Source: Phycisphaerales bacterium (lineage in GTDB: Bacteria > Planctomycetota > Phycisphaerae > Tepidisphaerales > Tepidisphaeraceae). Taken from it: a stretch of 64,000 nucleotides of DNA. Both the position numbers and the translations under genes were made by a program. The stretch is taken from positions 1-64,000 of the forward strand of contig JAQGHM010000391.1 in NCBI GenBank assembly GCA_028291615.1, in the 5' to 3' direction. The notes beneath the pieces are model-generated. The model worked only from the letters and a program-made list of their open reading frames with translations. It was not told where the DNA came from and made no database searches. Shown here one piece after another: positions 3,001 to 43,159 of the stretch; positions within the stretch are counted from its first letter, which is position 1, and each line of letters begins with the position of its first letter.

Positions 3001-3453
3001 GCTGATCGAGTACCAGACGGGCTTGGTGACAATGGCTCGGCGGAGGTCGACGGTCTGGGCGAGTTGGGTGGCCTCGGTAACGACGCGCTCCTTCATCACT
3101 TCGGAGCCGGGGATCGAATCGGGTTGCTGGACGAAGTTAACGGTGGAGCGGAGGCGGTCGTCGAACTGGGGGAAGACGGCTTCGAGGTGGCCGGCGACGT
3201 CGCTGAGGGAAAAGCGGGCGAGGATGGGCTTGGCGATCCAGCGGAAGGCGAGGTAGCCGACGGCGAAAAGGGCGATGACCGCGACGAGCAGGCGCGGGAC
3301 GACGGGGAGCTTGAGGACGTAATCGACGAAGACGGTGGCGAGGAGGATGCCGACCGCTGAGGCGAGGAGGATGCCGACGCCGAAGAGGATGGAGAGGAAC
3401 TTGACGCGGCGGCGGAGGTCGTTGAGGGAGTTGATCAGGAGTGTGGGGGGCAT
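1..3453 (-). CDS. DUF4175-like membrane/coiled-coil protein (3' end outside window)
   Basis: I see an open frame of 1151 codons from an ATG at 3453 to the window edge without a stop, so the C-terminus is missing. The N-terminus has two hydrophobic segments near residues 18-68 and a third near 147-165. Beta-rich, Ig-like sequence follows to about residue 530, then a long Lys/Gln/Glu/Ala-rich region predicted to be coiled coil. The visible end is a run of glycines. This layout fits the large DUF4175-type proteins that close MoxR/DUF58/VWA operons in planctomycetes. It is the last gene of the operon that starts at 10745, 80 bases after the preceding gene. The family has no firm biochemical role; a membrane-anchored partner of the VWA proteins is inference. 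Confidence 0.75.
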   Translation of the reverse strand, partial: MPPTLLINSLNDLRRRVKFLSILFGVGILLASAVGILLATVFVDYVLKLPVVPRLLVAVIALFAVGYLAFRWIAKPILARFSLSDVAGHLEAVFPQFDDRLRSTVNFVQQPDSIPGSEVMKERVVTEATQLAQTVDLRRAIVTKPVWYSISSAIGAIALLIALCLTLPRLAEIARNRLLGGNTPWPKSVIINAAPIPARIPFGQNLDLSLNLTKGDRPSQKALIYYQYDDGPVVKEYMIRGENGRYTASIKANGDNLKVWMAAGDDETEKQSITVVPRLAIQNVQATITPPAYAQMTPTTLDLAKAPAFMVTGSKVALRVQFNKKLDPAKEILFPVLSNNDNVKSADPGITTDRPDPTAPVAHWTAKDSFRFRIQATDTDGFTNTALEEYEIVVKPDQLPTVMIESPRKNVDRTPDAYLPLQVLAEDDFGIASLRLIVDRISVAPDPKDPTGAQPANAKKHWEIPLKDWARIDGTGERQRFRLNWDWDFKSVLGDLKPGDVLEYCIEAKDNYLIEATENGKTVAASHPAQFSSKLRINIISQDEMTIRITDEIRNLAQKTKTVHDSQVSNQNETKNLAQDTKDKPELTKGDKSALEGLTSRQSAMVSQTKGLSNQLDDIQKELKENKVKSEDLNSIAKEAKQDLDTAAEKPMTDAANQLNKAAQSKANPGNPQQQQKAQENRNQSLDQSEKNQGDAAKKLEDAMAKMDKVGNLSSAIKTVQDILDKQIELKNRLKEVGKETLGKKTDELTPEQKKKLDDNAAKQKELADKMDNAAKQMEKMGEQMSKSDPQSAQAMKDAAQKAQSQQISPQQRQAADAAKQNQQAQAQNQQQQAQLGIEVVLNTLKDAERRKLEQLTKQLDDTIKAIQDLVRRQAGHNIDNLDLQGADVKAKAMTKEEFDVLYAKAKRDNKPGKVELAVITSGQETTERNTRNVAKEAEEKIKGDGAVIGQDLVRAAGKMGYAIVDLRDKKLATAYNPHQVEALNALEQALKKAEDAKKDAEKKKQEQQAEAVKALLEKIRAEQSADVNKPTDEVHATRKPDGSLPREQAIRVNQLVGKQGELSKRMTDVAETLRGLGGIIYDAAALEVASGMDEVKEDLGKQKTGKPTQLEESRVVEQLDAMIASLKEEKDKSPFNQKDSGGGGGGGGGG

Positions 3454-3514
3454 TTGCAGCTCCTATTCGGTGTCTTCTAAAGGCGTCGGTCGCGTCTCAT
3501 TCTAGGGCAGCCAG

Positions 3515-3533
3515 CACGGGCGGGACGCCCGTG
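3515..3533. repeat. Short perfect hairpin, REP-like intergenic element
   Basis: CACGGGCG and CGCCCGTG form an 8-bp stem around GGA. It starts at the stop of the upstream VWA gene and lies before the DUF4175-like gene, within the operon. No T-run follows, so it looks more like a dispersed repeat or an mRNA-stabilising hairpin than a terminator. Confidence 0.5.
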
Positions 3534-6044: not shown

Positions 6045-6052
6045 GAAGATAA

Positions 6053-6076
6053 TTGCTGGTTGTTAGTTGCTGGTTG
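6053..6076. repeat. Direct repeat at gene junction (TTGCTGGTTG x2)
   Basis: Two identical 10-base copies of TTGCTGGTTG are separated by TTAG and span the stop codon of the BatA-like gene. A related inverted copy lies at 56057-56075 upstream of the inositol-phosphate synthase gene, suggesting a short dispersed element. Confidence 0.5.
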
Positions 6077-19455: not shown

Positions 19456-20217
19456 CTATCGACTAAATTCCAGCCGCAGCCGTAACAGAAGATCGTTCAG
19501 CGCGGATCGCGCCGATGGTGCTTCGGGCAGATTGCTCGCCTCCTGCGCCAGTTCGAGCGCCCCGCGCAAGCGGAGATATTCCCCCCGATGGAACTCCAGA
19601 TCAGCATCATCCAGGGCCGAATGCTCCCCGCCTGCCAGCTTTCGCGCGATCAGATCGGGCACGTACGGGAGGTTAAAAATCTCGTTTAATCGGACCAGGT
19701 TCGCCTGTACCTCGCCCGTCCGCATCAGGTGGATGCCGGTCAGCAAGACCCGGTAGACGTACAGCAGGGGCTTGGCCCGCCGGGGGGTCTCCTTTTCAAA
19801 CAGTCGCCACTGCGTCTCGGCGAATCCGAGGTAGTGATAGGCGTGATAGCGCGTGATGCATCCGGCCGACAGTGACTTCAGCTCCTCATGTGCGGGCGAA
19901 CTCTGGACTACGAGCGGCGACAACAACTGCTCCAGCACGTAACCGTTCTTCTTCAGCAAGAGCATGAAGAACTTCCGAGCGTCGTGCGTCACCAGATCCA
20001 GTTCCAGCCCTTCGACAATCGACGACCGCTCGATCGTCTCATCCTTCACATCCAGCCCCATCACCGCCGCCGGCGGCAAGATGTGCACGCCGCGCAAATC
20101 GTAATCCGAATCCGCCGATGGAAATCCATACAGATGCGCACCGCTCACGGTCGCGAAGACCAGTGGATACGGCTGCGCCGCCACGATCGAATGAAGTCGA
20201 GGGTCCAGTTGCATCAT
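19456..20217 (-). CDS. COG3541/RlaP-like nucleotidyltransferase, short form
   Basis: The 253-residue protein has a Pol-beta-type nucleotidyltransferase core. The SGAHLYG stretch stands for the usual GSxxYG, followed by S37-D38-Y-D40-LRGV, which supplies the two metal-binding aspartates. Helical sequence fills the rest. The family (COG3541, also called RlaP in RNA-repair work) is predicted to add nucleotides to RNA ends or act in tRNA/RNA repair. Its start overlaps the stop of the upstream paralogue by four bases (ATGA), implying translational coupling and perhaps a heterodimer. Confidence 0.85.
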   Translation of the reverse strand: MMQLDPRLHSIVAAQPYPLVFATVSGAHLYGFPSADSDYDLRGVHILPPAAVMGLDVKDETIERSSIVEGLELDLVTHDARKFFMLLLKKNGYVLEQLLSPLVVQSSPAHEELKSLSAGCITRYHAYHYLGFAETQWRLFEKETPRRAKPLLYVYRVLLTGIHLMRTGEVQANLVRLNEIFNLPYVPDLIARKLAGGEHSALDDADLEFHRGEYLRLRGALELAQEASNLPEAPSARSALNDLLLRLRLEFSR

Positions 20218-21149
20218 CTCTCCACCATCGCCCGCCGCGCCTTGACCAAAAATGCATTCACCGCCGCATAATCCGGCCGCTCCGGCAGCGTCGTCGCCGC
20301 GAACGCCGCATCAAACGCCTCGTGAAGCCGAACCCGCCATCCGTCCACTTCGTCCCACTGCAGCTCCCCGCGCCGAATGGCCAGCAACCGCTCGCGATGT
20401 TCCTCCACGCGCACCGGCACCACCGCTTCGCGCAGCGCCGTCACCCCGCTGAGCAGCAGCCGGATCAGGTGCATCACGTGCTTCCACTTCACTTCGCCTT
20501 TGTTCCGCAGGTCACTTGACAGCTTCTTGAACTGCGACATGACGTAGCCGTTGTACGTCTGATACACGAGCTTCGAGAGGAACGCCGCCCGCATCGCCAG
20601 CAGTTCCTCGGCCAGCGGCGTCGCGTGCTCCACCAGCGGTGTATACAAACACTCAAGCACGTTCGGATTCGCCTTCAGCGCCAGCACGAGAAACTTCTGC
20701 AGCTCCCAGTATGTCTCCTGCGTCGCGTCATCCTCGAGCTGCTCCGGCACGCCGAACAACGACCACTGCAAATCGGGGGGCGGAAGGTAAACGCCGCGAT
20801 AATCCGTATCCGACCCCGCATGATCTAGCCCATAAGCCCGCGATCCGATCACGCAGCGCAGGATCACGTGCCGCTTGAAGTCATACTCCGCCACGGGCGC
20901 ATCCACCGCCGTCCCGCCCTCGCGCTGATAGTGCTTGAGCACCACCAGTTCCTCGCGCTTCAGCGACGCCTCCACCCCATCCATAAATCGCACCCGATAA
21001 GCGTGCTGCGGATCCACCGGCGATTGCACGATCACGCCCACCGCGCCCGCCGCATGCTCTCGCAGCGCCACTCGCACCACGACCTTCGTCCCGACCGGCA
21101 AAACCGGTGGCAGCGGGAGTTGCTCAGGATGGAAATTGGGTGCGGTCAT
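20214..21149 (-). CDS. COG3541/RlaP-like nucleotidyltransferase with N-terminal beta domain
   Basis: This 311-residue paralogue of the next gene has an extra N-terminal domain of about 75 residues. That domain reads like a small SH3-type barrel (VGTKVVVRV, GVIVQSP, YRVRFMDG, LVVLKHY), similar in style to DUF4926-type domains. The nucleotidyltransferase core follows, with IGSRAYG and S113-D114-T-D116-YRGV keeping both metal-binding aspartates. The C-terminal part is helical. No RNA ligase or kinase gene lies next to it in this window. An RNA end-modifying role is an inference from the family. Confidence 0.85.
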   Translation of the reverse strand: MTAPNFHPEQLPLPPVLPVGTKVVVRVALREHAAGAVGVIVQSPVDPQHAYRVRFMDGVEASLKREELVVLKHYQREGGTAVDAPVAEYDFKRHVILRCVIGSRAYGLDHAGSDTDYRGVYLPPPDLQWSLFGVPEQLEDDATQETYWELQKFLVLALKANPNVLECLYTPLVEHATPLAEELLAMRAAFLSKLVYQTYNGYVMSQFKKLSSDLRNKGEVKWKHVMHLIRLLLSGVTALREAVVPVRVEEHRERLLAIRRGELQWDEVDGWRVRLHEAFDAAFAATTLPERPDYAAVNAFLVKARRAMVER

Positions 21150-23878: not shown

Positions 23879-24151
23879 ATGTCGAAGGCACATGTCGATC
23901 CAGTCGAATTACGGCGGTTTGCGGCGGACCTGAATCGGTTCAACACCGAGCTGACCGCCCTGGTCGGTGGCATCAACGGAAAGCTCCGCGGCTTGGAGCA
24001 GAGTTGGCGCGACGCCGAGCAGCGGAAGTTCACCGAGGCCTTTGACCAGACGGTCAAGGCGGTGAGCATCTTCCTCGAGTCGTCCGTCTATCACGTTCAG
24101 TTCCTGAACAAGAAGGCGACGTTGATCGAGGAATATCTCAAGCAGCGGTAA
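23879..24151 (+). CDS. WXG100-like protein
   Basis: The product is 90 residues, a normal size for the WXG100/ESAT-6 superfamily. It is predicted to be two helices joined by a turn at residues 42-51, SWRDAEQRKF. There W43 is followed by Asp instead of the classical Gly, and F51 fills the usual hydrophobic position. There is no signal peptide. I chose the ATG at 23879, behind GTGGAGA, because the longer frame lacks similarity and a ribosome site. The same SW[KR]DAxxx[KR]F motif recurs in the 70-residue protein at 25205, which supports the assignment. It is the first gene of the cluster ending in the FtsK/SpoIIIE ATPase and is probably a substrate or secretion partner of that ATPase. Confidence 0.82.
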   Translation: MSKAHVDPVELRRFAADLNRFNTELTALVGGINGKLRGLEQSWRDAEQRKFTEAFDQTVKAVSIFLESSVYHVQFLNKKATLIEEYLKQR

Positions 24152-24175
24152 CGATCCAGCAGAGGGATGATCGCG

Positions 24176-25186
24176 ATGAGCGGAACCGCACGAATCGATT
24201 CAGTGGACGCCCTGCGAATCTTTCGCACGGTGCTGGTGAAGTTCGCCGAGCAGGCGCAGGTCTCGCTTGGCGACGCCGAAGGGGAGATGGCGCGCGTGCT
24301 GGTCTGGCTGGAGACCGAGCAGACGACGTTTTGGTCCGGTCAGATCCGCAAGCGGCACGACCACGTCGAGAAATGCAAAGAGGCCGTGCGACAGAAGAAG
24401 CTCTTCAAATCGCCCACCGGTTCGACGCAATCGGCGGTCGAAGAGGAAAAAGCCCTCCGCATGGCGATCAAAAAGGAGGAAGAAGCGGTCGAAAAGCTCA
24501 AGGCCGTCCGCCGCTACATCCCCCGGTTGCAGAAGGAAATCTCGATGTACAAAGGGGGCGTGCAGCGGCTGTCGACGACGGTCTCGTCGGACATCCCGCT
24601 GGCGGTCAGCCGGCTGGACAAGATGGTGCAGGCGCTGGAGGCGTACGCTTCTCTTACTGTTTCCGGCGGTGGGGCGGACGATTCGGGCGAACTCTTTCAG
24701 CGCATGGCCCGCGCGATGGGCGAGATGGAAACGCCGCCGACGGATTACAAGCCGTTGCGACAGAAGACCGCCGCCGTCGAGCGCAAGACCGCCGTGCCCG
24801 GCGACGTGCGGCTTGAAGTCTGGAGCGATGGCCTGATCACCGAGAAGGAACGCGAGCTTTTCTCGAAGATCGATTCGGAGAAAAAGTCTCCCGCACCCGA
24901 CGCCGCAATCTTCGTGGAAAACGAAGCGTGGACCAGCCAGAAGATATACCTCGAGCGCGTCGCCGGTGAAGATGGTGACAGCGGTTGGTTCATCGGTCGC
25001 GCCGACGGCGCGGCGCCAGGCGAAGGCGTGCTCTCGATGCCGGTCGCAGATCTGCTCCAATCGCGGCAGGACCTGCGCGAGGCGTTGACGCTGCCGGTCG
25101 GCTTCCTGATCGTGATCGAGGGCACCGGCGTCACCACCGTTCTGGATGACAAGGGCAAAGACGTTTGGTCGGGCATTCCCAAGTAA
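24176..25186 (+). CDS. Helical protein with WSG motif, type VII-like cluster component
   Basis: I do not recognise a named family. The 336-residue product has an N-terminal helical half of about 160 residues with coiled-coil character. It contains W53-S-G55 in a stretch (TTFWSGQIRKRH) resembling the turn of WXG or LXG proteins. The C-terminal half from about residue 200 is mixed alpha/beta, with a DSGWFIGRADG stretch faintly reminiscent of DUF2185-type folds. No signal peptide or membrane helix is seen. I prefer the ATG at 24176 to the one three codons earlier because AGAGGG lies nine bases before it. Flanked by two WXG100-like genes and followed by the ATPase gene, it could be a secreted LXG-like substrate or a structural component. 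Confidence 0.7.
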   Translation: MSGTARIDSVDALRIFRTVLVKFAEQAQVSLGDAEGEMARVLVWLETEQTTFWSGQIRKRHDHVEKCKEAVRQKKLFKSPTGSTQSAVEEEKALRMAIKKEEEAVEKLKAVRRYIPRLQKEISMYKGGVQRLSTTVSSDIPLAVSRLDKMVQALEAYASLTVSGGGADDSGELFQRMARAMGEMETPPTDYKPLRQKTAAVERKTAVPGDVRLEVWSDGLITEKERELFSKIDSEKKSPAPDAAIFVENEAWTSQKIYLERVAGEDGDSGWFIGRADGAAPGEGVLSMPVADLLQSRQDLREALTLPVGFLIVIEGTGVTTVLDDKGKDVWSGIPK

Positions 25187-25204
25187 CGAGAGAGCGAGGT
25201 TGTT

Positions 25205-25417
25205 ATGGGCGTTTACGAAGGCCGCGGACAACTCGGCAAGTCCATGAAGGAACTGATGAACGCGTGGCTCGACACCCGCTCGTCATGGAAAGACGCCAAC
25301 GCCGACCGCTTCGAGAAGAAGCACCTGGTTCCGCTGGAGATGGACCTGCGGCAGGCGGTGAGCGCGATGGACGTGATGTCGCAGCTCATCTCCGCGATCA
25401 AGCGCGACTGCGAATGA
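25205..25417 (+). CDS. Second WXG100-like protein
   Basis: This 70-residue protein is short for the superfamily but carries SWKDANADRF at residues 27-36. That matches SWRDAEQRKF of the first cluster gene at the Ser, Trp, basic, Asp-Ala, basic and Phe positions. Both flanks are helical. GAGCGAGG precedes the ATG. It starts 18 bases after the 336-residue gene and ends 46 bases before the ATPase gene. The two WXG100-like proteins may pair, as ESAT-6 and CFP-10 do, though the unequal lengths make that inference only. Confidence 0.78.
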   Translation: MGVYEGRGQLGKSMKELMNAWLDTRSSWKDANADRFEKKHLVPLEMDLRQAVSAMDVMSQLISAIKRDCE

Positions 25418-25463
25418 CCTGCAAACCGATCCGACCGATTGACAGTCCCCTTTAGGCAACCTG

Positions 25464-28400
25464 ATGACGACACAAACCGAAGTCCTGACCAACGGCGAAA
25501 AGCACGAAGAGAAGGCCACCGATCGCGACCTGCAACGCCAGGCGCTGCGCGGGCTGGTCATCCTGTCCGAGCAATGCGCCGCCGACGAGGCCGACATTGA
25601 GAAGCGCCACGACACCGGCTTGGCGAACGAGGCCCAGGGCTTCGAACGCGCCACATGGGCAGCCGATCAAAACGCCAAAGGCGTCGAGGAGAGCATCAAG
25701 CAAAAGTACGAGGAGCGCCTTGGCAAGATCCAGGCGCAATTCGACGCCGACACCGTCTCGATCCGCGAGGCGCACGAGAAGGGGAAGCGCAAGGTCCAAG
25801 TCGAGTTCACGCCGCTCGAGCAGGACATCAAGAAGAAATATGACGAGGCCTTGTGGCTTGCCGATGCCGAGCTCGAAGCACGCCAGAACCAGATCCGCCT
25901 TGAACAGAAAAAGGCCAACGAGGATCTGAAAACCCACGGCGAAGAGATCGACGACCTCGAAGGCCGGGCGATCAGCCTCCTAAAGACTTACCGCCACAAG
26001 CCGGCCGATCAGGACATGGCGCAGATGGCGACCGCCGAAGGGGAGAAAAAGGAACCCGGCAACTACGCCGCCAAGCGCGACGCAGCCACCGCCGAACTCA
26101 CCCGCCTGCAGTCCCTCTTCGCCCCGCAGATCATGGTTGGCGCGCGTCCGTTCATGATCGTGCTGGTCCTGCTCGCGATCGCCGCGGGCGTGACTTACTT
26201 CCGGACCATGGATGCCGTAAACTTCGATGCCCAGCCATACATCATCGCCTGCGGCGCGACGCTGGCGGGGGCAGTCGTGCTCGGCGTCCTGATCATGATG
26301 TTGAGCAAGTCCAGCGTGCGCAAAACCTGGACGCGCACCAAGAAGCACCTCGACGAAGCCCGCAAGGCCTCCAAGGTCGATCATGAGAACTCGCTCAAGG
26401 AGCTCGAAGCCCGCACCGAAGCCGCCAAGCAAAAACGCGCCACCGAAGCCGCCGCACTGAAGGACAAATACAGCCCCCGCCTGTCCGCCGTTCAGGAAAA
26501 GAAAAAGACCGCCCTCGCCGCCAACGAGGCGCAGACCTCCGGCAGGATGAAGACCTACGAAGAAAAACGCCTGGGCCTGGTCAAGGAGACCGAAGTCTGG
26601 CAGATCCGCCACCAGGAAGAGCTCAAGGTCAAGCTCGCCAAACAGCTCGAAAGTCTCCGCATCAAGCACGAAGCCAAGATGAAGGAGATCGAAGACCGCT
26701 ACCAACAGGAAAAGGCCGATCTCGAAAAGCGGTGGAAGGATGGCTTGATCGAGATGTCCAAGCCGATGCAGGAATCCGACCACGAGGGGATCCGCCGCAC
26801 CGTCTACGACTGGGAAGGCACCAACTGGGAAAAGTGGGCGCCGCCCAAGACCTTCACGACGCTCGTTCGCTTCGGCGAGCTCCAGGTCGATCTGAAAACC
26901 ATCACCGACCAATACCCGCGCCAGCTCGCCTTGCCCGAAGCCTTCTCCGTCCCCGCCAACCTCGCGTTCCCACGTCAATCATCGCTGCTGATCCATGCCG
27001 ACCGCGAAGGCCGCCCCGAAGCAGTCGCCGCCCTGCAGATGGTCATGTCGCGCCTGCTCACCAGCCTTCCGCCCGGGCGTGTCAAGTTCACCATAATCGA
27101 TCCCGTCGGCCTCGGTCAATCCTTCGCCGGCTTCATGCACTTGGCCGACCACGACGAATCCCTTGTCGGCGGCCGCATCTGGACCGAGCGCGAGCAGATC
27201 GACCAGCGCCTGCTCAACCTGACCGAGCACATGGAGACGGTCATTCAGAAGTATCTCCGCAACGAGTACGAGACGATCGACGAATACAACGCCCAGGCCG
27301 GCGAGCTGGCCGAGCCGTATCGCTATCTCGTCATCGCCGATTTCCCCGTCGGCTTCGAAGGCGATTCGTTCCGCCGCCTCGCCAGCATCGCCACCAGCGG
27401 CGCGCGCTGCGGCGTCTACACGCTGATGATCCGCGACACGCGCATCCCGATGCCGCAGGGTTCACACTTTGACGATCTCGAAGCACACAGCGTCAACCTC
27501 GTCCGCATCGACGGCAAGTACGTCTGGAAGGATGAGGTCTTTAAGCAATTCCCGCTGAAGCTCGACATTCCGCCCAGCGAGGGGACGCTGACGGACATGA
27601 TGGACGTGGTGGGCCGCGAAGCGCGCCACGCCGCTCGCGTTGAAGTCCCCTTCTGGCAGATTGCCCCCAAGAGCGAAGCCGAATTTTGGACCAAGAGCGC
27701 CAAGTCGCTCCTATCCGTCCCCGTCGGCCGCCTGGGCGCGACCAAGGTGCAGAGCCTCGCCATGGGCAAAGGCGTCGCGCAGCACGCGCTGGTCGCGGGT
27801 AAAACCGGTTCGGGTAAATCCACGCTCCTTCACGCGATTGTCACGAACATCGCCATGTGGTACCGCCCTGACGAGATCGAGCTCTACCTGATCGACTTTA
27901 AGAAAGGCGTCGAATTCAAAACCTACGCCTCCAACGAGCTCCCCCACGCCCGCGCCATCGCCGTCGAATCCGATCGCGAGTTCGGCCTCTCCGTCCTCCA
28001 GCGCCTCGACATGGAACTCACGCGCCGCGGTGAAATCTTCCGTAAACTAGGCGTCCAGGACCTAGCCTCCTATCGCGACACCCCCGGCACCGGCCCCATG
28101 CCCCGAACCCTCCTGATTATCGACGAATTCCAGGAATTTTTTAGCGAGGATGACAAACTTGCACAAGACTCCGCACTTCTCATAGATCGTCTCGTCCGCC
28201 AAGGTCGTGCATTCGGCGTCCACGTCTTCCTCGGCTCGCAGACCATCGGCGGCAGCGGTGGCCTCTCCCGCGCGACGCTCGGCCAGATGGCGATCCGCAT
28301 CGCGCTGCAGACCAGCGAAGCCGATTCGCAACTGATCCTCGGCGATGGCAACTCCGCCGCGCGCCTCCTCACCCGCCCCGGCGAAGCGATCTACAACGAC

Positions 28401-29414
28401 GCCGGCGGCCTTGTCGAAGCCAACAGCCCCTTCCAGGTCGCCTGGCTCCCCGACGCCCAGCGCGACGAGTTCCTCACCAAGGTGCTCGAGAAGACCAAGC
28501 GCGAAAACGCGTTTTACGGCGAACCCGCCGTCGTCTTCGAAGGCAATGCCCCCGCCGATATCAGCAAGAACCGCGCCTTGCTCAAATTGCTCGACCAAGG
28601 CGGCGCCAAGCAGACGCCGACCGCCCCTCTCGCCTGGATGGGCGAGCCCGTCGCCATCAAAGACCCGACCGGCATCCCCATGCGCCGCCAGAGCGGCTCG
28701 AACATTCTCATCGTCGGGCAGGCGGATGAGCTTTCCCAAGCCATCATGGTCTCAGCGATGGTCGCCCTCGCCGCCCAGCACCCCAAGGGCAGCGCGATCT
28801 TCTACATCCTGGACGGCACCCCCGCTGATGCCCCCTTCGTCGGCACGTTCGACAAGATCCGCGAGATCATCCCCCACGAGGTGAAGATGATCGACTTCCG
28901 CGCGGTTCCCGAAGCCTTCACCGAACTCGCGGAAGAACAGACCCGCCGCCAGGGCTCGGACACCCTTCCCGATGCCCCGGAGATCTACGTCATTATCTAC
29001 GGCCTGCAGCGCTATCGTCCGCTGCGCAAAACCGAAGAAACCTTCGGCGGGTTCGGTGGCGGCGGCGACGAAGAGAAGAAGACGCCGACCGACAAGCAGT
29101 TCGCCGACCTGCTCCGCGAAGGCCCGCCGCTGGGAATTCACACGATCACCTGGTGCGATACGCCCGCCAGCCTGGAGCGCACGCTCGACCGCGGCGCGAT
29201 GCGCGAGTTCGACAACCGCGTGCTCTTCCAGATGAGCGCCAACGATTCCAGTAATCTCATCGACTCCCCCGCCGGCAACAAGCTCGGCATGTTCCGGGCG
29301 CTGGCGTACAGTGAGGAACAGGGCGTCTTCGAGAAGTTCCGGCCCTACGGCATGGTTGATAAGGCCTGGCTGGAATTCCTCCGGAGCAAGTTCGTTGACG
29401 CCGCCGGAGCCTGA
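25464..29414 (+). CDS. FtsK/SpoIIIE-type ATPase, EccC/EssC-like
   Basis: The 1316-residue protein starts with about 200 residues of coiled coil. Two membrane helices follow (about 229-246 and 259-280), then a second long coiled coil to about 430. Three FtsK/SpoIIIE-like modules come next. Module 1 (about 480-690) has no Walker A. Module 2 has Walker A G779-KTGSGK-S786 and Walker B LLIID887-E888, followed by the EFQEFF stretch. Module 3 (about 1060-1290) starts at SNILIVGQADE, which lacks the GKS. Three ATPase modules after a membrane hairpin is the plan of type VII secretion motors. The extra N-terminal coiled coil and the loss of Walker A in two modules are unusual. DNA translocation is less likely because there is no FtsK gamma domain. 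Confidence 0.9.
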   Translation: MTTQTEVLTNGEKHEEKATDRDLQRQALRGLVILSEQCAADEADIEKRHDTGLANEAQGFERATWAADQNAKGVEESIKQKYEERLGKIQAQFDADTVSIREAHEKGKRKVQVEFTPLEQDIKKKYDEALWLADAELEARQNQIRLEQKKANEDLKTHGEEIDDLEGRAISLLKTYRHKPADQDMAQMATAEGEKKEPGNYAAKRDAATAELTRLQSLFAPQIMVGARPFMIVLVLLAIAAGVTYFRTMDAVNFDAQPYIIACGATLAGAVVLGVLIMMLSKSSVRKTWTRTKKHLDEARKASKVDHENSLKELEARTEAAKQKRATEAAALKDKYSPRLSAVQEKKKTALAANEAQTSGRMKTYEEKRLGLVKETEVWQIRHQEELKVKLAKQLESLRIKHEAKMKEIEDRYQQEKADLEKRWKDGLIEMSKPMQESDHEGIRRTVYDWEGTNWEKWAPPKTFTTLVRFGELQVDLKTITDQYPRQLALPEAFSVPANLAFPRQSSLLIHADREGRPEAVAALQMVMSRLLTSLPPGRVKFTIIDPVGLGQSFAGFMHLADHDESLVGGRIWTEREQIDQRLLNLTEHMETVIQKYLRNEYETIDEYNAQAGELAEPYRYLVIADFPVGFEGDSFRRLASIATSGARCGVYTLMIRDTRIPMPQGSHFDDLEAHSVNLVRIDGKYVWKDEVFKQFPLKLDIPPSEGTLTDMMDVVGREARHAARVEVPFWQIAPKSEAEFWTKSAKSLLSVPVGRLGATKVQSLAMGKGVAQHALVAGKTGSGKSTLLHAIVTNIAMWYRPDEIELYLIDFKKGVEFKTYASNELPHARAIAVESDREFGLSVLQRLDMELTRRGEIFRKLGVQDLASYRDTPGTGPMPRTLLIIDEFQEFFSEDDKLAQDSALLIDRLVRQGRAFGVHVFLGSQTIGGSGGLSRATLGQMAIRIALQTSEADSQLILGDGNSAARLLTRPGEAIYNDAGGLVEANSPFQVAWLPDAQRDEFLTKVLEKTKRENAFYGEPAVVFEGNAPADISKNRALLKLLDQGGAKQTPTAPLAWMGEPVAIKDPTGIPMRRQSGSNILIVGQADELSQAIMVSAMVALAAQHPKGSAIFYILDGTPADAPFVGTFDKIREIIPHEVKMIDFRAVPEAFTELAEEQTRRQGSDTLPDAPEIYVIIYGLQRYRPLRKTEETFGGFGGGGDEEKKTPTDKQFADLLREGPPLGIHTITWCDTPASLERTLDRGAMREFDNRVLFQMSANDSSNLIDSPAGNKLGMFRALAYSEEQGVFEKFRPYGMVDKAWLEFLRSKFVDAAGA

Positions 29415-29605: not shown

Positions 29606-32600
29606 GTGCAAAATAGTAAATATCGGGCATCGGCGGCGCGCAGCCGCACAACTTCAGCTACACATACGCAATCGTTTTCGCAAAGAGGGAGGCGTCGCGC
29701 GCGAACCGTCGTCTTAAATGCTGCAATCTGCGCCGCACTCGGCGGCGCATTTGCCGGCGCGGCGGGGGCGGCGGACCGCATCTGGGACGGTGGCGGCGCC
29801 AACGACCTCTGGAGCAATCCGCTTAACTGGGATGGCGATCTTACGGCACCTGTCTCCGGGGATACCCTCACGTTCGACGGCGCCCTCCGGCCCACGCCGG
29901 CCAACAATCTCGCGCCCGATTCGGTCTTTGGGCCGATCACCTTCACCTCCGCCGCCGGCCCGTTCGTCATCGGCGGCAGCAACCGCATTACGCTCGGGGG
30001 CGACGTTATCAATAACTCGTCCAGCATCGAGACGATCAACCTCGCCATGCTCTTGAACGGCAACCGCAGCGTGAACGTCGCCAACGGCGCGGTCACGCTC
30101 GGCGGCGTCATCTCGGGCGCGGCCGTCGGCATTACCAAATCCGGTACGGGCATACTGACCCTCGGCGCTACCAATACTTACACGGGTTCCACGACGATCG
30201 ACGGCGGCACGCTCGCCTACACCGCCGACAACACCGCCACCGCCGCCATAAATTTCGGCGCCGCTCCCACCGCCGCGGCCACCAGTGCCAACATCGGCAC
30301 GCTCGATCTCACCGCCGCCAAACTCACCACGAGCAATTTCACGGTACAGACTAATTCGGCGACCCCCAACCAGATCACGATCGGCGCGGGCAAAACGCTG
30401 ACGATCAACGGCCCCTTCACCATGGGCGTCGGACTTGTGTACAGCGACGTCAACGGGGGCGCCAACACCGCCCTAAACGTATCTGGGAACAGCCTGGTTG
30501 TGAACAGCGGGACCAACAATCTCCTGATCGGCGTCGGGCGAAACAATGCGTCACCTGGCGCCGACCCCGTCGCCACGATGGACCTATCCGCCGGCGCGGG
30601 CCTCAATAACTTCACGTACACGGCCACCACCGGGCAACTACAGGTCGGCGGCGGCAACCTCCGAAGCACGCTGACGCTCGCCAACGTCAGCAACACGATT
30701 ACCGTCGCCACGATTAACGTCGGCAATTCCAACGTCAACGGGCCCGGGAACAACAACGGCGGACGCAGCATCATGCACCTTGGCGCCGGCTCGAACGTGC
30801 TGAATGCCAACACGATCCTGCTGGGCGAAGGCAAGTCGGGCGGCATCCTCGACTTTGCAGCCAGCGCCGCATCCGGCACGCTCACCATCACCGGCGAGGC
30901 GGGCGGCACCAGCGTTGCAAACATCCAAATCGGCAGCTCGTCCAGCGTCACCGGCTCAAACGATGACAGCGAGTTGCTCCTGGCCGGGCACAGCGTCAAC
31001 ATCCAAGCGGGCAACGTGGTCGTCGGACGGCTCGCCGGCGGCACCGGCGGGAACTCCGCCCGCGGCATCACCACCTTCGATACCGGCACGTTCGCCATCA
31101 GCAGCCTGCAACTCGGCGTCAACTCCAGCGGCACCACCGCCGCCAATGGCGCGACCGGCACCTTCACCCTTGGCGGCCCCAACGCCGGCAACACCGCCGC
31201 CACCGGTGTGCTCACCGTCAGCAACCAGTTCTACCTGGCCAATCGCACCAACACGAACGTCACCACTGCCGGCCGTTCCACCGGCACGTTCATCATCAAC
31301 GGCGGCACCGCCAACATCACAACCGACATTCTCGACGCCAGCACCACCGTCACCACCCTCGCCGGCGCCACCGGCGGCCCGAACCAGACCACCCTCACCC
31401 TCGACGGCGGCACGCTCAATATGAACGGCCGGAGCATCGGCACGTTCGCCGCGCCGATCACTACGATCAACCTGAACAGCGGCACGTTTAACGGCGCGGC
31501 GACCATCGCCGGACGGACGATCAACATGCAGTCCGCCGTTGTGGTCAACGGCGCGCCGAACTACGTCATCGCCGACGGCGGCGTCCTCACGTCCGGCGCC
31601 CCGGTTCTGACGCTCGCCAGCGGCGCAGCAATCGGCGGTGGTGGTGCAACCGGAGCCAACGTCTCCAGCAGCGTCCTCGCCGCCACGGGCTCGCGCATCT
31701 CTCCCGGGTTTGGCTCCGCTGCCGGCACGCTCACATTCAACAACGATTTGATGCTGGGAGCCAACAGCACACTCGTCTTCAAGCTGGGCGCCGCGACCAC
31801 CGTCGGGGGCGGCATCAATGACCTCCTCAACGTCAACGGCGCGCTCAGCTTCAACGGAACCGCCGTTGTCTCGATCTCCGGCACCGGTGGCGGGCCGGTC
31901 CCCGGCACCTACCGCTTGATCAACTACGTCAATCCGACCACCGCGATCAGCGGCACGAACCTCGTCGTCTTCGGCCAGACGCGGCAGACGTTCACGCTCG
32001 ATACTGCAACCGCCGGACAGGTAAACGTCACCGTTGGCGCCGGCACCGCCCCGCTTGCCCTGACGTGGACGGCTGGTTCGGGCACGAAGTGGAACCTCGC
32101 CACGGACTTCAACTGGCGGAACCCCACGCCCGCGCCCGACCGCTTCTTCGCGCAGGATTCAGTGACGTTCGACGATACGGCGACGAATCCTTCGACGGTC
32201 GAGCTCGTCGGCGCGCTGGCGCCGGCATCGCTGACCGTCAATGCGGCGCGCGACTACACGTTCGGCGGCGCTGGGTCGATCACCGGTTCCACCGCGCTTA
32301 CCAAGTCCGGCACGGGCACGCTCGTGCTCGCCAATACCGGCGTGAACGACTACGGCGGCGGAACGATCATCAATACCGGCAGCACGCTTCAAGTCGGCGC
32401 GGGCGGCAGCGGCGCGGGAAATCTGCCCTCGGGCGGCGCGGTGGCCAACAACGGATCCCTCGTCCTGAAACGCTCCGACGCCTTTACCGTGAACAACGTG
32501 ATCAGCGGCGCCGGCGACGTGAAAATTCTGGGCGGCACGGTCACCCTCACGGGCGCAAGCACGTACACCGGGCCAACGACGATCACCAATGGCGCGACCG

Positions 32601-35065
32601 TCAAGGTCGGCGTCGCCACGGGCCCGGCCGGCGGGGCATCGTCCCTCGGCGCGGTTCCCGGCGGCGCAGTGACGATCTATTCCGGCAGCACGCTGGACCT
32701 GACGCCCAACGCGACGGCCAACACCACCAACTTCGGTCAAAAGCAGTTCTTCATCGAAGGCACGGGTGTTGGCGGGCTGGGCGCGATCGTCAACAACAGC
32801 GCCGTCGCACAACAACTCGCGTTCGAGCGCATCACCCTCACCAATGACGCCACGATCGGCGGCACCCAACGATACGACATGCGCGAGACCAACGGGGTCA
32901 ACATCTCCTCGCTGGACCTCCAGGGCCACACGCTGACCAAGATCGGCGCCAACCAGTTCAGCCTGGTCGCCGTGAACGTCAGCGAGAGCGGGAACATCGT
33001 CGTCAACGCCGGCACGTTCTCCGTCGAGAGCACGACGGTCATGGGAGGCACCAATTCCGTAACGTTCAACGACGGCACCACCGCTCAGTTCTTCAGCAAC
33101 ACGGCAACGGCGTCGCTGGTGACGCGGCCGATGGTATTCAACGGCGCAGTACGAACCGGCACCGGAAGCAACAACAACAACACCATCGTCGGCAGCAACA
33201 TCCTCCTCAACGGCAACGTGACCGTCGCGGCGATTTCGAACAACGTCACCAGCCTCTTCACCCTCACCGGCGTTATCAGCGAGACCGGCGGCGCGCGCAC
33301 GCTGACCAAGACCGGCAACAGCCTGCTCTTCCTCAACGGCGCCAACACCTACAGCGGCGTGACGACGATCTCCGGCGGGGTCGCCAGCGCGGCGATCCTC
33401 GGCAATGGCGGCATTGCCGGCGGCATCGGGATCTCCTCCTCCAGCGCCACCAACGTCCTCCTCGCCGGCGGCGCGCTCGGGTACAGCGGCACCGTGCCGA
33501 CGAGCACCGATCGGCAGTTTACCGTCGGCCCGGTGACAGGCGGCCTCGATGCCTCCGGCGCCGCCGGGGCGCCGGTCAACTTCACGAGCACCGCGCCGAT
33601 CACGGTCGGCGGCGCCGGCGCGGTCACGTTCACCCTGGCGGGCAGCAACGCGGACAACAACGTCCTGGCGGCGAAGGTCGTCGATGGCACGGCCGCCACC
33701 GGCGTTACCAAGTCTGGCGCGGGCGCCTGGACGCTGGCGAATTCCGCTAACTCCTACACCGGCCCGACCACGCTCAACGCCGGCATCCTCCGCGTCAACG
33801 TGCTGGCGAATGGCGGAACTGCCAGCGGCATCGGACAGGCTTCTTCCGCGCCGGCCAACCTCGTGCTCGGCGGCGGCACGCTCAGCTTCACCGGCGCCGT
33901 CGCTGCGAGCACCGACCGGCAACTCACGCTCGTCGGCGCCGGTGGCGGCCTGGACGCCTCTGGCGCGGCTGGTGCGCCGGTCAACTTCAGCAACACCGGC
34001 GCGATCGTCAACAACGGCACCGCGCTGGCGGCCGTCCTGACCCTAGGCGGCAGCAACTCTGACGCCAACGTATTTGCCGGCCAGATCGTTCAACCCGCGA
34101 CTGGCCAACCGAGCGCCCTGACCAAGACCGGCGCGGGCACGTGGGTCGTCTCGTCCGCCGCCCACACCTACACCGGCGCGACCACAGTTAGCGGTGGCAC
34201 GCTCCGCGTCACGGGCTCGATCGCGACGAGCAGCGGCGTAACCGTCAATGACCCGACCGCCACGTTCGAGGCCGCCGCCACGCAGCGGATCAAGGGCCTG
34301 ACGGTGACCGCCGGACAGGCGCGCGTCGTCAGCGCGTCCGGAAAGATCGCCCTGACCGTCGGCGATGCATCGTTCGGGGCCAGCGGACTGTCGCTGACCG
34401 GCGGCAAGCTCAACCTGACCACCAACGGCGTGGTGGTCGACTACGCGGACAGTGACGCCACGGGCGACGCCGCCGTCGCCGCCAGCGTCCGCGCGCAGGT
34501 GCTCGCCGGGTTCAACGGCGGCGACTGGAAGGGCACGACCGGAATCACCTCCTCGTCGATCGGCAGCCTGACCGCCGTCGGTTATGCCCTTGCGGGCGAC
34601 GTCCTGCCGTTTGCCAACGGCGCGACGACTGACACATTCCTGGGCACGACGGTCGACAAGAGCGCGGTGGTCGCCCGCTACACGCTCTCCGGCGATATAA
34701 ATCTGGACGGCACGGTCGACTTCCTGGACCTCGCCCGATTGGCCCAGAGCTACAACGTGACGGATGGCACGCGCCAATGGTCCACCGGCGACGTCAACTA
34801 CGACGGCAACACCGATTTCCTCGACCTCGCGAAGATGGCGCAGAACTACAACACGGCCCTGCCCAGCGCGACGATCCCCGGTGCTTCCGCCGGATTTGAA
34901 GCGGATCTAGCCCGCGCATTTGCCGCGGTGCCCGAACCCGGCGCTATCGGGCTATTCAGTCTCTGCGGCCCTCTCCTGATGACACGTCGATGCCGGCGTA
35001 CATCGGTAAGTTCGGCCGCCGTGTCGACAAAGTCGCGACTGTTCCATCAAGGACGAATCAAATGA
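29606..35065 (+). CDS. Giant autotransporter-repeat surface protein with dockerin-like and PEP-CTERM regions (copy A)
   Basis: I start at the GTG at 29606 behind GCGGAGG. The 1819-residue product then begins with a twin-arginine-like basic region and a hydrophobic stretch, likely cleaved near AGA-ADR. Most of the protein is beta-strand repeats of the autotransporter-associated type, for example TKSGTGILTLGATNTYTGST. Near residues 1694-1750 are two dockerin-like loops (DINLDGTVDFLDLA and DVNYDGNTDFLDLA). VPEPGAIGLFSLCG near 1776 and a following MTRRCRR form a PEP-CTERM sorting signal. A further 21 residues follow the basic cluster, which is atypical. It is probably exported and sorted by an exosortase. 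No exosortase gene is present in this window. Confidence 0.85.
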   Translation: MQNSKYRASAARSRTTSATHTQSFSQRGRRRARTVVLNAAICAALGGAFAGAAGAADRIWDGGGANDLWSNPLNWDGDLTAPVSGDTLTFDGALRPTPANNLAPDSVFGPITFTSAAGPFVIGGSNRITLGGDVINNSSSIETINLAMLLNGNRSVNVANGAVTLGGVISGAAVGITKSGTGILTLGATNTYTGSTTIDGGTLAYTADNTATAAINFGAAPTAAATSANIGTLDLTAAKLTTSNFTVQTNSATPNQITIGAGKTLTINGPFTMGVGLVYSDVNGGANTALNVSGNSLVVNSGTNNLLIGVGRNNASPGADPVATMDLSAGAGLNNFTYTATTGQLQVGGGNLRSTLTLANVSNTITVATINVGNSNVNGPGNNNGGRSIMHLGAGSNVLNANTILLGEGKSGGILDFAASAASGTLTITGEAGGTSVANIQIGSSSSVTGSNDDSELLLAGHSVNIQAGNVVVGRLAGGTGGNSARGITTFDTGTFAISSLQLGVNSSGTTAANGATGTFTLGGPNAGNTAATGVLTVSNQFYLANRTNTNVTTAGRSTGTFIINGGTANITTDILDASTTVTTLAGATGGPNQTTLTLDGGTLNMNGRSIGTFAAPITTINLNSGTFNGAATIAGRTINMQSAVVVNGAPNYVIADGGVLTSGAPVLTLASGAAIGGGGATGANVSSSVLAATGSRISPGFGSAAGTLTFNNDLMLGANSTLVFKLGAATTVGGGINDLLNVNGALSFNGTAVVSISGTGGGPVPGTYRLINYVNPTTAISGTNLVVFGQTRQTFTLDTATAGQVNVTVGAGTAPLALTWTAGSGTKWNLATDFNWRNPTPAPDRFFAQDSVTFDDTATNPSTVELVGALAPASLTVNAARDYTFGGAGSITGSTALTKSGTGTLVLANTGVNDYGGGTIINTGSTLQVGAGGSGAGNLPSGGAVANNGSLVLKRSDAFTVNNVISGAGDVKILGGTVTLTGASTYTGPTTITNGATVKVGVATGPAGGASSLGAVPGGAVTIYSGSTLDLTPNATANTTNFGQKQFFIEGTGVGGLGAIVNNSAVAQQLAFERITLTNDATIGGTQRYDMRETNGVNISSLDLQGHTLTKIGANQFSLVAVNVSESGNIVVNAGTFSVESTTVMGGTNSVTFNDGTTAQFFSNTATASLVTRPMVFNGAVRTGTGSNNNNTIVGSNILLNGNVTVAAISNNVTSLFTLTGVISETGGARTLTKTGNSLLFLNGANTYSGVTTISGGVASAAILGNGGIAGGIGISSSSATNVLLAGGALGYSGTVPTSTDRQFTVGPVTGGLDASGAAGAPVNFTSTAPITVGGAGAVTFTLAGSNADNNVLAAKVVDGTAATGVTKSGAGAWTLANSANSYTGPTTLNAGILRVNVLANGGTASGIGQASSAPANLVLGGGTLSFTGAVAASTDRQLTLVGAGGGLDASGAAGAPVNFSNTGAIVNNGTALAAVLTLGGSNSDANVFAGQIVQPATGQPSALTKTGAGTWVVSSAAHTYTGATTVSGGTLRVTGSIATSSGVTVNDPTATFEAAATQRIKGLTVTAGQARVVSASGKIALTVGDASFGASGLSLTGGKLNLTTNGVVVDYADSDATGDAAVAASVRAQVLAGFNGGDWKGTTGITSSSIGSLTAVGYALAGDVLPFANGATTDTFLGTTVDKSAVVARYTLSGDINLDGTVDFLDLARLAQSYNVTDGTRQWSTGDVNYDGNTDFLDLAKMAQNYNTALPSATIPGASAGFEADLARAFAAVPEPGAIGLFSLCGPLLMTRRCRRTSVSSAAVSTKSRLFHQGRIK
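33341..34158 (+). repeat. Two tandem ~400-base coding repeats in copy A
   Basis: Two units of about 404 and 414 bases each begin at an N-[TS]-Y-[ST]-G-x-T-T motif. Each contains a STDRQ stretch followed by GGLDASGAAGAPVNF. Equivalent units occur in copy B, so the repeats arose before or together with the gene duplication. Confidence 0.7.
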
Positions 35066-38000
35066 AAATGACCAAATCAAATTCGACCAGGATCCTGCTC
35101 GCTGCTTGCGCTGCAGCTTTGACCACTGCCTCGCAAAGCGCAATTGCGGCGACGATTACCTGGAACGGTGGCGGCGCGGACAACAACTGGTCCACCGGCG
35201 CGAACTGGATCGGCGGCGCGGCCCCCCTTCCGGCCGATGCGCTTATCTTTGCCGGCGTGGCTCGTCTGGCCCCGATCGATGACTTCCCCGCGGGCACGCG
35301 ATTCAGCGGCATCACCTTCAGTTCCGGCTCGGGCGCGTTCACGCTCGGCCCGTCGGCGAACACGATCGCCCTGGGCGGCGGTGACGTCGGCGGCAGCACG
35401 GTTGGAAATTTCACCAGCTTCGGCATCGTCAACGGTGTCACCAACAGCTCCACCAACCTGCAAACCGTCAACCTCGGGCTCACGCTCAACGTCGGTCTTC
35501 ACACCTTCGGCGGCGGCGCCGGCGGTCTCGTCCTGGGCGGTCCGCTCACCCACAACCCCGGCGGGGTCGCGACCTTCACGCCTGGCGCGGGCGGCATCAC
35601 CGCAACGGGCGTTTCCAATTCCAACGGCATCCTCGGCGGGTGGGCAACCCTGGCGGGAACCGATTGGGCAACCCGCGACGCCAATAACAAGATCGTTGCC
35701 TATACCGCGTACACCGACGTCGCCGGCGGGGCGGCGATCGCCAGCGCGGCCGCCACCAACGTTCGCATCAGCGTCACCAACGGCTCCAACGTGACGCTCG
35801 CTGCTGCCGGCGTCACCGACATCAACTCGCTGCATTACAGCGCCATCAACTTCACGCAGATCCTGGACGTGGGCGCGAACAACACCCTTCGCCTAGGCGC
35901 CAGCGGTGGGATCCTCCGCTCGGCGAATTCGAATAATTCGCTGACTATCGGCGCCAGCACCGCCGCCGGTGGCACGCTCACCGCGGGCGGCCCGGATGCC
36001 GCTGGCGGTGGCATCGACAACAACCCCGGCGAGCTTGTTTTCAATACCGGCCCCACCGGCAACACCAACACCGCCATCAAGGTCAACTCGAAGATCACCG
36101 ACAACGGCACAGGCGCGGTCCGCCTGATCAAGACCGGACTGGGCACGCTGGACCTGTCGAATGCCAACTCGTACACGGGCGGCACCTACGTCGCCGATGG
36201 CCGCATCGCGACCAACAACCCGGGCGCGCTCGGCACGGGGCCGGTCACGGTCATCGGCCTCGGACAGGTTTTCTTCGGTGTCGGCGGCACGTACGTCAAC
36301 GACTTCTCCATCGCCGGCATCGGCACCAACGAGGCCGGCGGGCACGGCGCGCTGCGCCTGAACAGCAACAGCACGCTCACCGGCGCGATCACGCTCCTGG
36401 GCAATGCCCGCATCGCCACCCGCAGCGGCACGGGGTTCCTCAACGGAAAGATCACCGGCGGGTTCGCCCTCGAGCTAGGCGGCTACAACAATGACGCGAC
36501 AAACACGGTCGTCCTGAACAACACCGCCAACGACTGGACCGGCAACACCACGTTCAGCGAGGCCCAGACGATCCGGCTGGGGGCCAGCGAGGTGATCCCC
36601 AACGGCGCAGGCAAGGGAAACGTCGCACTCAACACCAGCGCATCCGTCTTGCGCAACACCGTCTTCGACTTGAACGGCTTTAACGAGACGGTCAACGGAT
36701 TCTCCAGGACCGGCGCTACCCGCGCCCGCGCGTTTGTGCGCAACAACCTGACCGGCACCGCCGCCACCCTCACCGTCGGCGATAACGACCAAAGCTCCGC
36801 CTTCGACGGCAACATCCAGGACAACCAGGGCGGCACGCTGACCGGCACGATCGCCCTGACCAAGATCGGCGCCGGCACGCTCACGCTCGCCGGGGCCAAT
36901 ACCTATTCCGGCGGCACGATCGTCAACAAGGGCATCCTCCTCGCCAACGGCGCTGCCGTTCCCGCCGCCACCCTGAACGCCACCACCACCGCCGCCAGCG
37001 CCGTCGTCAACGGCCTTGCCAGCACCGCCGGACTCCTCGTCGGCCAACCCGTCAGCGGGACCGGCATCCCCATCGGCGCGGTCATCACGGTGATCAACAC
37101 CGCCAATCAGGTCACGCTCTCCGCCAATGCCACCGTTGCGGGAACGCCCGACCTGACCTTCGCCGCGGTCTCGGCGCTGGGCAAAGGCAACGTCTCGGTG
37201 GCCAGCGGGGCAGGCTTCGGCGGCGTCGGCACGTTGACCAGCGACGTCACGCTCGCCGCCGGTTCCACCCTGCGACCCGGCGCTACGACCGTTTCCGGGG
37301 CGGTCGGCACACTCACACTTAACAATCTCACGATCAACGGCGGCGACCTCCAGTTCGATCTCGTCGCATCCGCCAACGCCGACTTCGTCCATGCGCTGGG
37401 AACGATTAACTTCGCCGGCCCTTCGACGATCACTCCCATTGCGCTGAGTTCCGGCACGTATACCCTCTTTTCGTCCGATGCCAATCCCATTATCTACGCC
37501 GCCGGCGCCGTGCCCACACTGAATAGCGCCCCCATCGGCGACACCCGTCCCGCCAATTACGTGCTCGATACCACCACCAACCCCAGTGCCATCCTCCTCA
37601 ACGTCACCGGCGGCGGCACGGCGTCGCTGATCTGGGCCGGCAATGCCAGTGCCAACTGGAACGTGGCTACCGACGTCAACTGGAAGAACGGTGTCGCGCC
37701 CGACAAATTCTATCGGCAGGACACCGTGACCTTCGACGATACCGCGACCAATCCCGGCGTGGTTCAGCTCGTCGGTCAACTCATCCCCACCGCAATCTCG
37801 GTCAACGCAGCGCGGGATTACACCTTCGCCGGAAGCGGCGGGATCAGCGGCGCTACCGGCATCAGCAAGGCCGGCACGGGCACGCTCACGCTCGCCAACA
37901 GCGGCGTCAACGACTTCACCGGCCCGATCACCATTGATGGCGGCGCTATCATCCTCGCGAACAGCGGGAACAACTCGTTTAACGGTGGCATCCGCATTAA

Positions 38001-42517: not shown

Positions 42518-42916
42518 TTAGCTGGAATAGTCGCTGATCATTCGGCGGAAGAAGTCGGCGATTTCGGGTTTTTGGGCCTGTCCCTGAGCGACGCGTAAGA
42601 CGAGTTGTTCGGTTTCGTCGATGGGCAGGTTCAGATCGAAACCATTGAGGGCGAGAAAGTTGATGGCGGCGTTCAGGCCGGTTCGTTTGTTGCCATCGGC
42701 GAAGGGATGGTTCTGGACGATGTGGAACAGGTAAGCGGCCGCCATCGCGGCGATATCTTCGTGCAGATAATTCCCATCCCACGTGGCCCGAGGCTGACCT
42801 AAAGCGGATTCGAGCTTTGCGAGGTCAAGAAGTGAGGGGTCCCCTCCGAACAGTTCGATTTGATCGGCGTGGAATTGAAGGACGTCATCAAGCGTCAGAA
42901 AGAATGGATCATTCAT
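42518..42916 (-). CDS. doc: Doc/Fic-family toxin
   Basis: The 132-residue protein matches the Doc branch of the Fic superfamily. The catalytic loop reads HPFADGNKRTG, where His is the active-site base and the GNKR anchors nucleotide phosphates. N-terminal helices (LTLDDVLQFH, then the LFGGDP turn) are typical of Doc. The classical Doc of phage P1 phosphorylates elongation factor Tu. This one carries Gly where P1 Doc has Ala (DGNKR versus DANKR), so its activity could be either phosphorylation or AMPylation. It follows the AbrB-type antitoxin gene by 15 bases. Confidence 0.9.
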   Translation of the reverse strand: MNDPFFLTLDDVLQFHADQIELFGGDPSLLDLAKLESALGQPRATWDGNYLHEDIAAMAAAYLFHIVQNHPFADGNKRTGLNAAINFLALNGFDLNLPIDETEQLVLRVAQGQAQKPEIADFFRRMISDYSS

Positions 42917-42931
42917 GCGCGAACCCCCCGC

Positions 42932-43159
42932 TTATTTGGAAAGCCGCCTGAAGAGTTCGGCGTTCTTTTTCATCGTCTCCCGCTGACTTTCCTTCATCTT
43001 TTTGGCGCGCTCTTCATCGGTGAACGGCTCGATAATTAATTTCCGACCCTGGACACTGACCTTTACGGTCGCATCCTTATTGATTTCCAACAATTCCAAG
43101 AGCTGGCGATCGATGATCAACGCCGCGGAATTGCCCTGACTGGTGAGTTTTTTAATCAC
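42932..43159 (-). CDS. AbrB/MazE-type antitoxin
   Basis: The 75-residue protein has an N-terminal swapped-hairpin DNA-binding domain (LTSQGNSAALIIDRQLLELL, then KVSVQGRKLIIEP). A charged helical tail rich in Lys, Glu and Met probably wraps the toxin. The start is GTG at 43159 with GGAG five bases upstream. Doc is more often paired with Phd; an AbrB-type partner is a known but less common combination. A perfect palindrome lies 16 bases upstream and is the likely autoregulatory site. Confidence 0.88.
   Translation of the reverse strand: MIKKLTSQGNSAALIIDRQLLELLEINKDATVKVSVQGRKLIIEPFTDEERAKKMKESQRETMKKNAELFRRLSK

Follow-up and report, generated by a model that had tools for sequence, protein, structure and literature searches.

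We observed four co-directional genes (A, B, C, and D) at positions 23879 to 29414 on the plus strand of a Phycisphaerales contig, within the 64-kb stretch of DNA analyzed here (the window). On balance, we lean toward reading their products as the four obligate parts of a complete type VII-like machine for protein translocation in PVC bacteria, with export among the features that we infer.

Architecture of the four-gene locus

The source genome is 6.9 Mb in an assembly that is 87% complete. The features of the locus are as follows.

23879-24151, plus strand: gene A, a 90-amino-acid (aa) WXG100 protein with a helix-WRD-helix layout (PF06013)
24167-25186, plus strand: gene B, a 339-aa coiled-coil hairpin protein with a variable C-terminal part
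24203-24664, plus strand: helical hairpin core of B, residues 13 to 166 (AlphaFold2 model)
24848-25150, plus strand: C-terminal Imm33-like domain of B (PF24719; 42.6 bits, cutoff 27)
25205-25417, plus strand: gene C, a 70-aa second WXG100-type protein with a WKD motif (matched by the A profile; hhalign)
25464-29414, plus strand: gene D, a 1316-aa membrane-anchored EccC/EssC-like ATPase (PF01580)
25521-26123, plus strand: N-terminal charged, coiled-coil-like region of D, about residues 20 to 220 (judged by eye; low column conservation)
26130-26306, plus strand: two predicted membrane helices of D, starting near residues 223 and 260, with a short loop between them (Kyte-Doolittle scan)
26331-26753, plus strand: second charged, coiled-coil-like region of D, about residues 290 to 430 (judged by eye)
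26961-27533, plus strand: D module 1, degenerate and ATPase-like, without Walker A; the subfamily marker
27696-28463, plus strand: D module 2, the active ATPase module, with TGSGKS invariant within GKTGSGKS, and IDEFQEFF
27798-27821, plus strand: Walker A of D, GKTGSGKS, residues 779 to 786 (alignment)
28110-28130, plus strand: Walker B of D, LLIIDEF, residues 883 to 889 (alignment)
28656-29363, plus strand: D module 3, degenerate, C-terminal, and ATPase-like, with NILIVGQ in place of Walker A (fold model)

The first-pass annotation had described co-directional genes separated by 18 to 46 bases; the shared direction stands, and the range needs correction because the A-B gap is 15 bases (the B-C and C-D gaps are 18 and 46 bases). 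Genes flanking the cassette in the window are unrelated, and a comparison of neighbors found no gene family beyond A-D that recurs beside PVC cassettes. Rfam gave no match within the window, and a promoter and terminator scan of it stayed at chance level. Directly downstream (29714-40506) are two consecutive proteins of ~1800 aa with passenger-associated repeats and dockerin domains; these PATR/dockerin surface proteins were considered as accessory parts and rejected, as they are not conserved cassette neighbors. The window also holds a toxin-antitoxin pair at 42518-43159, made up of a Fic/Doc family gene preceded by a small gene that resembles an AbrB-type antitoxin, and two neighboring RlaP-type (RNA repair pathway) nucleotidyltransferase genes that adjoin a U32 peptidase gene (19456-21149).

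Two of the small proteins had been called WXG100-like from the DNA sequence, and profile searches upheld this for A by the Pfam cutoff and for C by profile comparison; the outcome in which the small proteins proved unrelated to WXG100 did not occur. A scored 28.0 to 28.1 bits against PF06013 (cutoff 27.3) and is the sole match to that family in the 6.9-Mb genome; all 59 of its relatives match PF06013 at E values of ≤0.01, and mean column identity is 62%. No signal peptide was seen in A. Among solved structures in the PDB, the A profile matched HP0062 (1.5e-13), EsxB (1.3e-8), and EsxA (2.7e-5), and Helicobacter pylori HP0062 is thus its best solved relative. C itself has no Pfam WXG100 match, and PF06013 is matched, weakly, by 6 of 67 C relatives. 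The family profiles of A and C match each other reciprocally, and a profile-profile alignment of the two (hhalign) gave a probability of 82% and E = 1.1e-5; by these comparisons C is a second, divergent WXG100-type protein homologous to A. A W-x-D motif at the bend is invariant in both families (59/59 relatives of A and 67/67 of C). Searches of the source genome with PF06013 and the A, B, and C profiles found no orphan substrates elsewhere in it. No second copy of A, B, or C occurs there, and essentially none occurs in other genomes; therefore, no effector repertoire is visible.

B had been described as a helical protein with a WSG motif, of which only the first part held. A single-chain AlphaFold2 model predicts helices at residues 13 to 79 and 91 to 166 (pLDDT, about 98), and the W is kept across B relatives. 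The G two residues on is present in only 12 of 66 relatives, and the WSG of B is therefore a local coincidence. B as a third WXG100 protein was rejected on the same WxG count and on an A-B hhalign probability of 1%. B evolves fast (mean column identity, 21%), and among the orthologs found in 66 loci the hairpin core is the sole common part. Among these 66 PVC proteins, a subset from Phycisphaerae has an Imm33-like tail, and the other tails are short and disordered; the Imm33-like match was found in 10 of the 66, is modeled in B as an alpha/beta domain, and is the sole copy in the source genome. B as a toxin was likewise rejected, with no recognized toxin domain among the 66 proteins. A fold search with B returned nothing significant: its hairpin resembles the LXG hairpin 8gmh in outline (TMt = 0.65, E = 0.61, not significant), and Vipp1/PspA-type coils were weak structural neighbors that were also not significant.

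D is, as first annotated, a membrane-anchored three-module FtsK/SpoIIIE ATPase, with two hydrophobic helices and three RecA-like modules, of which only the middle one retains Walker motifs according to alignment and model. At least two membrane helices were predicted by a Kyte-Doolittle scan in 65 of 73 PVC D proteins. D scored 104.7 bits against FtsK_SpoIIIE (PF01580), NCBIfam aligns its module 2 to EccCa/EssC, its module 3 lies in the position of EccC's substrate-binding module, and its cytoplasmic part has a mean column identity of 51%. EccC/EssC are the nearest solved relatives of D by both sequence and fold, and D scores under the NCBIfam equivalog cutoffs for EccC and EssC. Its matches in a defense library are generic ATPase matches. 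D could in principle be a DNA pump of the FtsK type and the small helical genes incidental, as D has the FtsK/SpoIIIE fold and FtsK motors were its next-best structural matches (E = 1e-13). However, EccC (4nh0) matched far better (E = 1.1e-31), Pfam detected no FtsK gamma DNA-binding domain in D, and genomes with D always keep the WXG100 pair, and we consider a DNA pump very unlikely.

Distribution, descent, and co-retention

Bacterial and archaeal genomes were scanned for D, and the best 80 of at least 386 loci were examined. These 80 belong to Planctomycetota, Verrucomicrobiota, and Lentisphaerota, and many are alignable over nearly the entire protein. Among them, 59 loci include 2.3 kb or more of sequence upstream of D, and 53 of these have the order A-B-C-D on one strand. 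The neighborhood comparison thus did not separate the four genes, and the suggestion of a reduced type VII-like gene set kept together in a diderm lineage is supported. Within planctomycetes, the presence of D is patchy (60 of 392 genomes).

In a tree of the active module, PVC D proteins stand apart from EccC/EssC. The D tree, which was built by a quick method and places plasmid sequences on long branches, largely follows taxonomy, with the Verrucomicrobiota proteins forming one clade (support, 99), which suggests mostly vertical descent in PVC bacteria. One locus labeled Alphaproteobacteria clusters with planctomycetes in this tree and may reflect contamination of a metagenome-assembled genome. 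No relatives were found on viral contigs at the sensitivity used, and matches in phage records were mostly module-2-only and FtsK-like. As a separate observation, an unannotated 10-kb human gut scaffold recorded as phage (L087, positions 584-7371) carries a ThiF-like gene and a distant EssC-like ATPase (1423 aa); the next protein has a WXG-like N terminus and HELGH, a typical metallopeptidase motif. To judge from recombinase and integrase-like genes close by, this is probably an integrative element.

Co-retention was assessed in 50 of the 392 planctomycete genomes, 36 with D and 14 without it, the latter all from the window's own class. The B and C profiles each matched 36/36 genomes with D and 0/14 without it, and the A profile matched 35/36 and 0/14, the one missing case being a fragmented assembly. 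PF06013 was matched in 36/36 genomes with D, and among the 14 others there was one weak, sub-cutoff match. A, B, and C are each essentially single copy, and the rare second matches are A/C cross-matches or weak. A Fisher test of co-occurrence gave P of ~1e-12, a value that serves as a guide rather than a probability because the genomes are related and the noncarriers belong to one class.

The strongest evidence that the A-D proteins act together comes from genomes in which the genes are scattered and still retained, as linkage cannot explain this pattern. In G105, the four genes are far apart on a single 6.8-Mb contig, and in G087 they lie on four contigs, each as a single copy in both genomes. 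Intermediate arrangements are A / BC / D (G024, G356, G137, and G194), ABC / D (G152 and G307), AB / CD (G216), and AB / C / D (G365). These gene complements point to an obligate four-component machine rather than a traveling cassette.

Mobile relatives and known type VII systems

D-like ATPases were also found on plasmids of Caballeronia, Helicobacter, Rhodococcus, and Deinococcus. They share with PVC D the diagnostic first module, which is absent from EccC and EssC (module 1 profile, 26 to 104 bits for plasmid relatives versus no more than about 2 bits for EccC/EssC), and they are without membrane helices. The plasmid ATPases adjoin a long coiled-coil protein and, in four of five loci, an A-like WXG100 protein, for which the Rhodococcus pseudokoreensis plasmid has no clear candidate. 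The Helicobacter plasmid encodes a WXG100 protein, a fusion of a coiled coil to a WHH/colicin-type nuclease with a SUKH immunity protein next after it, a small helical protein, and the FtsK ATPase. A similar gene set is present on the Caballeronia plasmid, in a locus that includes TerY-P-type genes; the C terminus of its coiled-coil protein resembles an ExK nuclease by eye and has no Pfam match. The B profile gave at most about 16 bits against the plasmid coiled-coil proteins, in low-complexity coils. Judged by position and architecture, with weak sequence similarity, PVC B may occupy the slot of the toxin-bearing coiled coil.

The plasmid gene sets match a published extension of CoCoNuT systems (PMC11090510), and the view of the locus as undescribed has to be given up, with prior accounts in PMC3482391, PMC11090510, and PMC10765036. 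Footnote 6 to Table 1 of Zhang 2012 (PMC3482391) lists WXG domains that occur solo, together with a distinct ATPase that has three HerA/FtsK domains and activity in the middle one only; planctomycetes and verrucomicrobia are among the hosts, and Zhang 2012 suggests that such loci are "mobile versions of T7SS." The 2024 CoCoNuT study (PMC11090510) reports the same component set in Type III-A CoCoNuT loci, where the coiled coil carries a nuclease fusion, and refers to earlier work on a WXG100/EssC-like set that stands alone. WXG100 proteins with FtsK/SpoIIIE ATPases have been noted in some Gram-negative bacteria, unconfirmed as type VII secretion (PMC10765036). A literature search that fell short of most subscription journals found no dedicated study of the T7SS in planctomycetes or verrucomicrobia.

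The suggestion of Zhang 2012, a mobile cassette for a toxin or for competition, would fit the plasmid-borne relatives with nuclease and immunity genes and the patchy presence among planctomycetes. Nevertheless, the PVC D tree follows taxonomy, including the well-supported Verrucomicrobiota clade, the components are single copy even when scattered, and no toxin or immunity gene lies within the PVC cassette; for the PVC version we disfavor this explanation as unlikely.

The closest described counterpart, the CoCoNuT/TerY-P operon (PMC11090510, PMC4978471, and PMC3482391), likewise combines an EssC-like three-module ATPase, its middle module active and its N terminus coiled coil, with two WXG100-type proteins and a coiled-coil protein, and mention is made of a form that stands alone. 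PVC D has two membrane helices, whereas the CoCoNuT ATPases reportedly have none; the coiled coil is nuclease fused there, whereas the 66 PVC B proteins are without a nuclease domain. The PVC cassette also differs in having no TerY, kinase, phosphatase, or CoCoNuT neighbors, in its W-x-D motif in both small proteins, and in its single-copy, mostly vertical inheritance. New relative to the earlier accounts are the membrane helices of D, the invariant W-x-D pair, the toxin-free B, the mostly vertical inheritance, and the strict single-copy co-retention. The H. pylori HP0062/HP0066 pair is alike through HP0062, which has WRD at the bend and clusters with a gene for an FtsK/SpoIIIE-domain protein (PMC3397514).

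Both general hallmarks of T7SS, a WXG100-family protein and a membrane EccC/EssC-type FtsK/SpoIIIE ATPase, are present. Like T7SSa (ESX), the cassette has a WXG100 pair and an EccC-like membrane ATPase, but D differs from EccC in its three modules with only the middle one active and in its separate clade. T7SSb (Ess/Yuk) and T7SSc-j similarly combine WXG100 proteins with an EssC-like ATPase, but T7SSc-j ATPases carry four C-terminal NTPase domains (PMC11217815), whereas alignment and model give D three. In agreement with the first-pass annotation, EccD, EccE, and MycP are missing among the genes flanking the cassette, and the T7SSb components EssB and YukD are absent from the A-D locus. EccB had no match in 14 genomes, a search in which the control genomes gave none either. 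EssB/YukC had no match above the cutoff in 14 genomes, with the Bacillus subtilis control detected. YukD/EsaB-like genes occur in 2 of the 11 system-bearing genomes searched, the source genome and G353. In the source genome, one lies in an operon of YukD-like ubiquitin-fold, ThiF/E1-like, and JAB-peptidase genes (contig C67; L113, positions 3-2634), a ubiquitin-like operon rather than part of a T7SS, and the second is alone on a short contig (L112, positions 4977-5273). A canonical T7SS elsewhere in the genome was rejected, as one YukD-like gene sits in the ThiF-JAB operon and the other stands alone.

The small number of components might suggest a decayed remnant of a canonical T7SS. Against this are the strong conservation of A and of the cytoplasmic part of D, an ATPase subfamily of its own with a diagnostic first module, and the EssB/YukC result, and we find such decay scarcely credible. 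The comparisons instead point to a system that works like type VII secretion and is a variant of it, with a putative T7SS status.

Proposed mechanism and significance

In the machine that we propose, D would form an inner-membrane ring through its own two helices, powered by the middle ATPase module only. A and C, as W-x-D WXG100-type hairpins, would dimerize and may present cargo to the degenerate end modules of D. B would be the main cargo or its adaptor, because its hairpin sits where the mobile relatives carry a coiled coil-nuclease toxin with an immunity gene after it. PVC B is without that toxin and ends in a tail that is short and disordered or, in part of the Phycisphaerae, in the Imm33-like domain. 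Ring assembly, A-C pairing, the role of B as cargo, and export are thus plausible steps read from the genes and models.

Several points speak against an export machine: no outer-membrane component is known, there is no effector repertoire, no toxin domain is found in the 66 B proteins, PVC B is tied to the plasmid coiled-coil toxins mainly by position and architecture, and the nearest described relatives sit in intracellular defense loci (PMC11090510). The chief alternative is that D, as a membrane-tethered remodeling ATPase, acts with B and the WXG100 pair in an intracellular complex for stress or defense, with no export. The embedding of relatives in TerY-P and CoCoNuT loci is in its favor, as are the lack of outer-membrane component and effectors and, among nonsignificant matches, the Vipp1/PspA-type neighbors of B. 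On the other hand, genes for TerY, kinases, phosphatases, or McrBC-type proteins do not recur beside PVC cassettes, D gained or kept membrane helices that its plasmid relatives lack, and the pairing of toxin with immunity genes in the relatives suggests that those toxins are released from the cell. We regard this complex as possible but doubtful.

We therefore retain the translocation machine as the preferred reading. Going further, we speculate, and only tentatively, that the four proteins make up a domesticated, housekeeping type VII machine of PVC bacteria, at work in a two-membrane cell. One ATPase would then serve as inner-membrane channel and as motor, B and the WXG100 pair would be the sole cargo, and this type VII subtype would either descend from mobile cassettes that export toxins or be their ancestor.

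Type VII secretion in Gram-negative-type cells is an open question (PMC10765036). The present analysis turns scattered remarks into a defined, testable four-part unit, with one copy of each part, that is reproducible across PVC bacteria. If its substrates are exported, few known type VII machines would be as small, and the question would arise of how WXG100 cargo meets the outer membrane; if they are not, WXG100-EccC modules would have a second, intracellular job.
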